A model generated the notes under the pieces. That model saw nothing but the letters and a program-made list of their open reading frames with translations, was not told the DNA's origin and searched no databases. DNA of 34,934 nucleotides from Nitrospirota bacterium (GTDB taxonomy: Bacteria; Nitrospirota; Thermodesulfovibrionia; Thermodesulfovibrionales; UBA6898): NCBI GenBank assembly GCA_021814065.1, contig JAKAIZ010000006.1:1-34934 (forward strand), written 5' to 3'. A program made the translations under genes and the position numbers. Within the stretch, counting starts at the first letter, position 1. Each line of letters opens with the position of its first letter. Shown in pieces: positions 32,165-34,474 of the stretch.

Positions 32165-33052
32165 CTACATGAGCGCGGGCTTATACCCCTTAAACAGAGC
32201 GCCGACGGTATGTGGGGAGGTACGGAAGCCCGTCGTTCCCCCGAACTCGACCGCCGTGAATCCGGCCTCATCCATTAACCTCATCTGGTCCCGGACCGGG
32301 ACCGCCCCGCCGATTCACTGAGACCAGGCCTCAAGGCTGCCTGCCAGTTCTGCGGGCAGATCATTCTCTAAGACCACATCGGCAAACTGGATCCTCCCAC
32401 CGGGTTTGAGCACCCGGTGTATTTCCCTGAAGCAGGCAGATTTACGCGGAGACAAGTTTATCACGCCGTTTGAGATGACGATATCAAAGAAATTGTCCGG
32501 ATAGGGCAGATCTTCCGAATCGATCTTCCTGACCTCAAAATTCGTCGCGCCGGCAGAGGCAAGGTTCCCGACCGCCCGGCTGACCATCTCCTGTGTGAGG
32601 TCGACTCCGCAGATGCGCCCGTCTTTGCCGACTATCCGGCTTGCGACATAAAGGTCGAAGCCTGCCCCGCAACCGAAATCCAAAACGGTTTCCCCGGGGC
32701 GTATCCCGCCAAGTGGAAACGGATTGCCGACCGCGCAAAAGGACTCTATGAGGCTTGAAGGGGCCTGACCGATAATGCCGGAATCGTATCCGAGGGCTTC
32801 TGCGCCTGCCTTGCCTGTGGGATATCCGAATTTCCCCGCGGCAGAAATCGCGACCTCGGCATACTTCTCCCTTATTGCAGCCCTGATGGCGTCGAAATCC
32901 CGGGGAGAGGTCTCTCCGCGGCCGCGAGTATCTGTTGCGGGCTGATCAGGCGCACCAAGAGTAACGGCTATACTGTCTTGCAGGCAACCTCCGGCGCCGC
33001 CCGACGGCGGTCAGGAAGGCGGGGCGGAAATATTTTTCTGCTGATCGTCCAA
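32165..33052 (-). CDS. ArsM-like SAM methyltransferase, candidate selenoprotein (two in-frame TGA)
   Basis: Read on the minus strand from TTG 33052 with TGA as selenocysteine, this gives 295 residues ending in TAG (32165-32167). It has an N-terminal Cys/Pro/Gly segment (Sec14, Cys23), the IREKYAEVAISAAGKF helix, the SAM motif VLDFGCGAGFDLYVASRIVG, VISNGVINLSPRKSACFREI and VLKPGGRIQFADVVL, then EAWSQ-Sec246-IGGAVPVRD. This order matches arsenite methyltransferase/UbiE-like enzymes, in which a conserved Cys that binds arsenic lies before such a GGA element. The only stops are TGA at 33011-33013 and 32315-32317; each has a hairpin at the SECIS distance. The strong GGAGGT lies five bases before TTG. 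No ATG, GTG or TTG occurs between codons 15 and 123. A plain pseudogene is the alternative. Confidence 0.72.
32281..32317 (-). promoter_or_regulatory. Bacterial SECIS-like hairpin after TGA246
   Basis: After the TGA (32315-32317), 11 bases precede a stem GGTCCC-GGTCC-GGGACC (6 bp, 5-base loop). The GGTC of the loop starts 18 bases after the TGA. In the E. coli fdhF SECIS the loop also has GGUC and begins at about the same distance. A close match in distance, stem length and loop sequence supports SelB recruitment at this codon. Confidence 0.65.
32980..33013 (-). promoter_or_regulatory. SECIS-like hairpin after TGA14
   Basis: Downstream of the TGA (33011-33013) the minus strand can pair GGCGGC with GTTGCC (two G-U pairs) around a 7-base loop GCCGGAG. 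The loop Gs fall about 19-20 bases after the TGA, as in known bacterial SECIS elements. Other pairings of this GC-rich tract (CCGCC / GGCGG) compete, so this is less certain than the downstream one. Confidence 0.4.
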
Positions 33053-33081
33053 GCCGGACCTCCGGTTCTTCTATTTAGCCT

Positions 33082-33111
33082 AGTATAATTTCCTGCACGG
33101 AAGTATGTCCA
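33082..33111 (-). promoter_or_regulatory. Promoter of the methyltransferase gene
   Basis: On the minus strand TGGACA (33106-33111) is followed after 18 bases by TATACT (33082-33087). The predicted start near 33075 would leave a leader of about 20 bases before the Shine-Dalgarno GGAGGT and TTG 33052. Confidence 0.5.
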
Positions 33112-33125
33112 GCCCCGCATAGACG

Positions 33126-33158
33126 GAGCCGACGGCATTACGCTAATACCGTCGGCTC
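33126..33158. repeat. Strong palindrome between divergent genes
   Basis: GAGCCGACGG-C-ATT-ACGCT-AAT-A-CCGTCGGCTC forms a 10-bp perfect stem plus three inner pairs around a 5-base loop. There is no T-tract on either strand. It sits just behind the -35 box of the minus-strand methyltransferase promoter and upstream of the plus-strand promoter, a good place for an operator or an independent small hairpin. Confidence 0.5.
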
Positions 33159-33259
33159 TGGAGCGTGAGGCGTGAAGAGCTTACATCGCCCACTTGTAGA
33201 TCATGATCACATCATTCAGAGAAGGACAGCGGGATGCGGATCGGGGTTGATAAGCGCCC

Positions 33260-33288
33260 TTGACAACCCGGTGCAACTCATTAATAAT
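33260..33288 (+). promoter_or_regulatory. Promoter before the cyclic-nucleotide-binding gene
   Basis: A perfect TTGACA (33260-33265) and AATAAT (33283-33288) are separated by 17 bases. The predicted leader is about 95 bases long, to ATG 33392. Apart from the palindrome and the two promoters I see no gene in 33053-33391. Confidence 0.5.
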
Positions 33289-33391
33289 GAAAAAGGCGCC
33301 GCTCTTAATAAAAATAAAGATTGTCTTGTCAGCCCGGAGAATTCCCAAAACATCAATGCGGGTTGGCGAGGAGCGGAGAGGAGGAGGAACG

Positions 33392-34474
33392 ATGACGCTG
33401 CAATCGGGAGATTTGAGGAAGTACAACTACTTTTCTGGTCTTTCAGGCAGTTCGCTGGAAACCCTTTCGAAGAAGCTCAGGACAGTGAGTTTTCCCGCAG
33501 GTACTGCGATTATCGAAGAAGGGGCTGTCGGCGATTCTTTCTACTTTGTGAAAGAAGGCCGCCTCGAGGTGACGAAGAAGACTAAATCGGGCCAGACTTC
33601 AAGGCTTTCGGTAATCGGCAGCGGGCAGGCATTCGGCGAAATAGCCCTGCTGACCTGTTCAGTGCGGTCGAGTTCAGTGCGGGCGGTCACGGACGTCCTG
33701 CTTTATGAGCTGCCAAAGGCGGATTTCGAGGATGTTATTCTTCGCGAGGCCGAATTCAGGCTGATGCTCTACGATGGGGTGAAAGAGCACTCGTACTACA
33801 ACAGGATAAAAGCGCTTCAGCCGTTCGAGTTGCTCAGTCCCGACAAGATGTACGTACTAATGGCGAGGTTGGCCGAAAAGAATTACCTTCCCGGCGAAGA
33901 CATTATTGTGCAGGGAGATAAAGGAGACAGCTACTATATCATCAAGTCCGGCCGTGTTGAAGTGCTGAAGAAGAAAAAAGGCGAAGAGGGGTATCGCGAG
34001 ATCGCGGTGCTGGGAAAAGGCGACGGGTTCGGGGAAGAGGCGCTCATTCGTGATGACCCGCGAAACGCAACTTGCCGCGCAGTTGAAGAGACGACTGTTC
34101 TCGTGCTCGACAAGAAAGATTTCAACCAAATTGTGAAGTCGTCGTTCGTCGAAAATATATTCCCTGAAGAAATAGCACTCGACACCTACCTCGACGATTA
34201 TGTGATCATCGATGCCCGGATACAGCCCGAATACGAAGAAGAGCACATCCGGGGGGCAATAAATATCCCGGTCGAAATACTGCGGGAAAAGTGCTCCGGA
34301 TTCGACCGGTCGAAAAAATATATTACATACTGCCTGAATGACTCGCGGGGCATGGTAGGGGCTTTTCTCCTGAAGAGCCGCGGGTTCGACGCGAAATGTC
34401 TCCGCGGCGGTGTGAGCGGATGGGAAGGTCCTCTGGTGACCGGGGGAGACGGGGTTCACCGTCCGCAGGAATGA
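33392..34474 (+). CDS. Double cyclic-nucleotide-binding and rhodanese protein
   Basis: This 360-residue protein has two cNMP-binding (cupin-like) domains followed by a rhodanese domain and no membrane or DNA-binding part. Phosphate-binding-cassette-like motifs are FGEIALLT (from F81, with RSSSVRA) and FGEEALI (from F213, with RNATCRA). The rhodanese part has IIDARIQPEYEEEHIRGAIN and the catalytic Cys in YCLNDSRG (C314). It likely senses a nucleotide and changes sulfur-transfer or persulfide activity, but no ligand can be assigned. ATG 33392 follows GAGGAGG; the longer frame to 33260 is unlikely, as its start lies on the promoter. Monocistronic by spacing. Confidence 0.85.
   Translation: MTLQSGDLRKYNYFSGLSGSSLETLSKKLRTVSFPAGTAIIEEGAVGDSFYFVKEGRLEVTKKTKSGQTSRLSVIGSGQAFGEIALLTCSVRSSSVRAVTDVLLYELPKADFEDVILREAEFRLMLYDGVKEHSYYNRIKALQPFELLSPDKMYVLMARLAEKNYLPGEDIIVQGDKGDSYYIIKSGRVEVLKKKKGEEGYREIAVLGKGDGFGEEALIRDDPRNATCRAVEETTVLVLDKKDFNQIVKSSFVENIFPEEIALDTYLDDYVIIDARIQPEYEEEHIRGAINIPVEILREKCSGFDRSKKYITYCLNDSRGMVGAFLLKSRGFDAKCLRGGVSGWEGPLVTGGDGVHRPQE

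Follow-up and report, generated by a model that had tools for sequence, protein, structure and literature searches.

Selenocysteine (Sec) is encoded by UGA, and a gene that uses it is readily mistaken for a shorter one. The window, the whole 34,934-nucleotide stretch of a Nitrospirota genome analysed here, contains a minus-strand frame resembling the arsenite methyltransferase ArsM that runs through in-frame TGA codons. The question is whether these codons are stops or Sec codons, and whether one or two of them are decoded. The gene is read here, from its sequence and with a probability of roughly 0.88, as encoding a double selenoprotein carrying Sec14 and Sec246. Among known selenoproteins, only a small minority contain two Sec residues.

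Reading frame and the active-site TGA

The read-through frame is open from 33070 to the terminal TAG, and its product has 295 residues when both TGA codons are translated as Sec (Table 1). The gene starts at a TTG preceded by a Shine-Dalgarno sequence, 123 codons upstream of the TTG at 32683 given in the ORF listing. The listed start was rejected because it falls within the SAM-binding domain, and 173 of the 295 residues are absent from the listed ORF. The window protein matches Methyltransf_31 in Pfam (8e-32) and ends at the methyltransferase core, without a fused second module at its C-terminus. The earlier note overlooked both this upstream start and the TGA near it; gene callers can easily miss a Sec so close to the start (codon 10-14), and at least 46 genes would have their annotation corrected.

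Table 1. Positions of the features of the locus in the window.
Feature	Position	Strand	Detail
Predicted double-selenocysteine ArsM-like methyltransferase gene	32165..33052	(-)	start TTG 33052-33050, stop TAG 32167-32165
Shine-Dalgarno GGAGG	33059..33063	(-)	6 nt ahead of the TTG start
In-frame TGA, predicted Sec14	33011..33013	(-)	motif SUPPSGGAGGC; codon shared by 46 distinct genes
Candidate SECIS hairpin for Sec14	32981..33003	(-)	CGGGCGGC-GCCGGAG-GUUGCCUG; supported by the gene set
In-frame TGA, predicted Sec246	32315..32317	(-)	motif WSQUIGGA; position of ArsM Cys224
SECIS hairpin for Sec246	32287..32303	(-)	GGUCCC-GGUCC-GGGACC; 12-28 nt past the TGA, loop at +18

The downstream TGA had been proposed in the earlier note as a Sec codon at the Cys position of an ArsM-like enzyme, with family-like sequence continuing beyond it. 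The frame indeed stays open for 49 further codons of ArsM-like sequence up to the TAG. In a phmmer search of the PDB, the alignment runs through the TGA and places it in the column of a Cys in CrArsM and CmArsM. The family was scanned in GTDB genomes and in 396 genomes of the phylum with a profile built from eleven sequences, the window protein and its ten closest relatives. This TGA is present in 11 of these 11 sequences and at the methyltransferase site of all close homologues found. Cys occurs at the site only in more distant relatives, most of which have it, while some have TGA. Sec246 therefore shows the alignment of a TGA with Cys in homologues by which bacterial selenoproteins are recognized.

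The hairpin with a GGTCC loop at +18, also foreseen in the earlier note, is present and outperforms both codon-resampled and shuffled controls. It clearly fits the description of a bacterial SECIS element, for which a hairpin 16-37 nt downstream with G at one of the first two loop positions is expected. Its six pairs (+12 to +28) are intact in 97.5% of cells across 68 distinct sequences, and 29 cells show double-sided (compensatory) changes; in 500 shuffles the average is 91.2% and the maximum 93.1%. The folding energy at 73 sites, chosen for having the TGA so that their number is itself no evidence, has a mean z of -2.4 relative to codon-resampled controls, with 57 sites at p <=0.05. Random control positions give a mean z of -0.24 (7/60 at p <=0.05). 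In all these hairpin tests the sequences are related and do not represent independent trials.

The machinery for Sec insertion, on which the earlier claim also depended, is encoded in the same genome, which is 94% complete: selA, selB, selD, and a tRNA-Sec with a UCA anticodon (65 bits) are all present. The selA and selB genes lie near each other on one contig (C171), and selD (L046, G000:C165:5064-5984) has an in-frame TGA of its own, as is known for Sec-type SelD. Conservation, the SECIS hairpin, and the sel genes lead us to infer Sec incorporation, and the TGA at 32315-32317 is almost certainly a Sec codon. Sec at the position of ArsM Cys224 is a known kind that is already catalogued (PMC13188914), and an arsenite methyltransferase with a UxxG motif is given as an experimentally verified selenoprotein in the same review (PMC13188914).

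None of the signs that the earlier note had named as speaking against Sec was found at this codon, although in one sister genome 837 bp are deleted, which removes most of the gene. That deletion in a close relative, together with two stops within one frame, would suit a pseudogene or sequencing errors. Such an origin is highly improbable and was rejected because the TGAs recur in relatives: the same two codons are shared by 46 distinct genes drawn from many assemblies, neither is replaced by TAA or TAG, and the changes within the SECIS are compensatory.

The N-terminal TGA and its conserved arm

Codon 14 of the frame is the second in-frame TGA. A TGA stands at the matching N-terminal place in nine of the ten closest relatives, and in seven of these it is likewise codon 14, within a motif resembling S/T-U-P-P-S-G-G-x-G-G-C. 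Both TGAs are present in 10 of the 11 aligned sequences, and the only one of the ten relatives without the N-terminal extension is L018. After removal of repeats, the N-terminal TGA is carried by 46 distinct genes including that of the window, mostly at codon 14 and surrounded by U-P-P-S-x-G-A-G-G. Among the 45 such genes taken from loci, Pro is found at residue +2 in 38 and Gly at +7 in 39, and the Sec14 codon was never seen as Cys, TAA, or TAG. Every gene with the arm has TGA there; the arm was not encountered in a Cys form, so that Sec14 is supported by conservation and not by Cys replacement. Nitrospirota and Desulfobulbales-type Thermodesulfobacteriota make up most of the hosts. In 22 of the 25 host genomes selB scores above its cut-off; the other three are drafts, which do not establish its absence.

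It could be supposed that only Sec246 is decoded, and that translation stops at the N-terminal TGA after a short leader and restarts downstream to give a single-Sec ArsM. Relatives in the sister group are complete without an N-terminal Sec, and an ATG, GTG, or TTG lies between Sec14 and the core in 29 of the 45 genes, as such a restart would require. In the window gene and in the 16 other genes, however, there is no such codon; in the window the next in-frame start after the N-terminal TGA is 32683, inside the SAM-binding domain. Moreover, a start with its ribosome-binding site is located 13 codons upstream of this TGA, the residues beside it are conserved in frame, and the codon is invariant in the genes with the arm. 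Translation of a single-Sec protein is accordingly considered quite unlikely, and decoding of both TGAs is the preferred reading.

The hairpin evidence at Sec14 differs between the gene set and the window copy, in which it is weak. In 44 genes the mean z is -1.3 and 15 reach p <=0.05, while the window hairpin on its own is unexceptional (p 0.14). Many relatives use a register that corresponds to 32983-32998 in the window, where the window sequence has one mismatch. The registers vary by clade, with the loop near +19 in most Nitrospirota genes and a GGUC-like loop at +22 in many Desulfobulbales-type genes. Pairing in the Nitrospirota register is 85.1%, which is inside the shuffle range (maximum 85.6%), and in the second register it is 89.7%, slightly above the shuffle maximum of 88.5%. 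Because the SECIS hairpins are only supporting, the case for Sec14 stands mainly on conservation of the codon and motif and on the lack of another start. In L066, L068, L070, L073, L074, L076, L085, L089, and L094, the hairpin of the N-terminal Sec is 3 nt further downstream than in most Nitrospirota genes and its loop is GGUC or GGAC.

On the maximum-likelihood tree, the presence of the N-terminal Sec requires 3 changes compared with 25 when the labels are shuffled. Most genes with this Sec fall in one group with a support of 90, and the deep branches are poorly resolved. Of the 22 tree genes without it, L079 and L105 begin at a contig end and the others have no arm; 21 relatives without the arm are complete or nearly complete. 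The sister set (L078, L084, L088, L095, L096, L098, and others) comprises stand-alone proteins with a single Sec in WSDU or WSNU and a second Sec at neither the N- nor the C-terminus, and one of them is from Anaerobacillus arseniciselenatis. Use of the N-terminal motif as a module elsewhere was considered and rejected: the exact pattern occurs in 4 of 176 genomes of the order, always in this gene.

Comparison with known selenoprotein families

The window protein does not reach the cut-off of any model in NCBIfam release 20. Its matches are to the arsenite methyltransferase/AhpD selenoprotein (ArsM_AhpD_UU, 3e-87), methyltransferase/UXPK-star (1e-85), the ArsM/DUF2284 selenoprotein (4e-82), and PRK11873 ArsM (2e-58). 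The Sec-containing arsenite methyltransferase of the NF008823 type (UxxG) shares its fold and Sec position with the window protein; however, it has one Sec instead of two, and the window protein scores 198 bits against a cut-off of 263. Within the phylum, relatives of this type (L024-L036) keep SNC and N-terminal Cys pairs.

The remaining models describe proteins with more than one Sec. The double selenoprotein NF047649 (methyltransferase/UXPK-star) shares the methyltransferase core (287 bits, cut-off 460) and the possession of two Sec residues. Its name places the second Sec in a C-terminal tail, whereas the match of the window protein ends at model position 251 of 283. NF041537 (arsenite methyltransferase/AhpD; 293 bits, cut-off 510) and NF041536 (arsenite methyltransferase/DUF2284; 276 bits, cut-off 575) also share the core and have more than one Sec, but their extra Sec accompanies a fused C-terminal domain that the window protein lacks. 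The window protein thus has neither the C-terminal module nor the score of the UU and UXPK-star double selenoproteins, and no UXPK-star protein exceeded its NCBIfam cut-off in the ten genomes holding relatives.

Methyltransferase/UXPK-star, ArsM/DUF2284, ArsM/AhpD, and MduS are listed as predictions with two or three Sec residues (PMC13188914). MduS (WP_332845911.1) likewise combines a methyltransferase domain with two Sec residues (PMC13188914, citing Haft and Tolstoy 2025). As far as its listed description allows comparison, its motif is CxxU, in contrast to UxxG in the window family, and no CxxU occurs in the window protein, which matches no NCBIfam model better than the AhpD, UXPK-star, and DUF2284 models. 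An N-terminal UPPSGG Sec is absent from the multi-Sec entries of that review, and no ArsM with an N-terminal Sec was found in the literature searched, to which Haft and Tolstoy 2025 did not belong. The start-proximal selenol arm is probably a new addition to the double-Sec ArsM-like methyltransferases, MduS being compared by description only. It is conceivable, with somewhat less than an even chance, that these genes form an unlisted double-selenoprotein family in which a SUPPSGGxGG arm and an active-site Sec rebuild the metalloid site, and that the C-terminal UXPK, AhpD, and DUF2284 modules are separate solutions. Proteins with no second Sec, an N-terminal Sec, or C-terminal Sec modules provide a natural series for probing the second selenol in metalloid methylation.

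Fold, metalloid ligands and genomic setting

The AlphaFold2 model, computed with 49 sequences, has a confident core (mean pLDDT 88, pTM 0.82). Residues 1-50, forming the arm and linker, are of low confidence, with pLDDT of 41-58 compared with >90 in the core. The thirteen best fold matches in the PDB are all ArsM or AS3MT, which places the SAM methyltransferase fold nearest to ArsM. In CmArsM, arsenic is bound by Cys72, Cys174, and Cys224; C174A and C224A are inactive, and Cys174 is required for methylation of both As(III) and MMA(III) (PMC3877260). The earlier note had assumed the usual As(III) site. This stands for the Cys224 position, which is occupied by Sec246, and fails for the other two ligands: Cys174 corresponds to Gly196, within an SNG found in nearly all family members, and Cys72 corresponds to Val108. 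Two residues before Val108, the family has a new and nearly invariant Cys106 (FCGVG). Because ArsM Cys174 and Cys72 are lost, the flexible Sec arm is, from sequence and model, the best candidate for a substitute metalloid ligand.

The gene would then encode a SAM-dependent ArsM-like methyltransferase with two UGA codons decoded as Sec, in which Sec246 stands in for the metalloid-binding Cys224. Conservation and the model place Sec14 in a short SUPPSGGxGG arm, with a flexible linker between it and the core. Its conservation, position, and predicted flexibility are consistent with an arm that folds over the active site and brings in Sec14. Together with Sec246 and Cys106, Sec14 could provide the soft ligands that bind a trivalent metalloid, in place of the lost Cys72 and Cys174. 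Between turnovers, a selenenylsulfide or diselenide may also be formed and resolved by the two selenols. This arrangement is put forward tentatively.

Arsenite or methylarsenite is the likeliest putative substrate. Since Cys174 of CmArsM is Gly in the window protein, the substrate may differ, and a double-Sec methyltransferase could instead act on another metalloid or on a Se, Te, or Hg compound. Such a substrate is a lesser, though real, possibility and is compatible with the arrangement proposed above. Two of the three CmArsM ligands are missing, with two Sec residues and Cys106 instead, and the gene is not surrounded by a fixed arsenic operon. On the other hand, the nearest sequences and folds are all ArsM, an Acr3 arsenite efflux gene is present in the same genome, and an ArsM-type gene is located beside the relative in L055.

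A conserved operon was rejected, as only a VTT-domain membrane protein recurs, at six loci. Links to plasmids (matches of <40% identity) and to phages (weak methyltransferase matches) were also rejected. In L055 (2811-6222), the double-Sec gene is followed by a gene for a VTT-domain protein, an ORF with a rhodanese domain, and a gene for an ArsM-type methyltransferase, and a VTT-domain gene also directly follows the double-Sec gene in L066, L068, L073, and L074. In the window, the divergent neighbour (33260-34474) encodes two cNMP-binding domains and a C-terminal rhodanese domain. In the sister species of the same genus (G001), the 837 bp deleted run from intergenic sequence upstream of the gene into its coding region (L021 around 1499-1503, corresponding to window 32415-33251), with flanks that are 92-93% identical. 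The remnant comprises approximately the last 80 codons and includes the Sec246 TGA.
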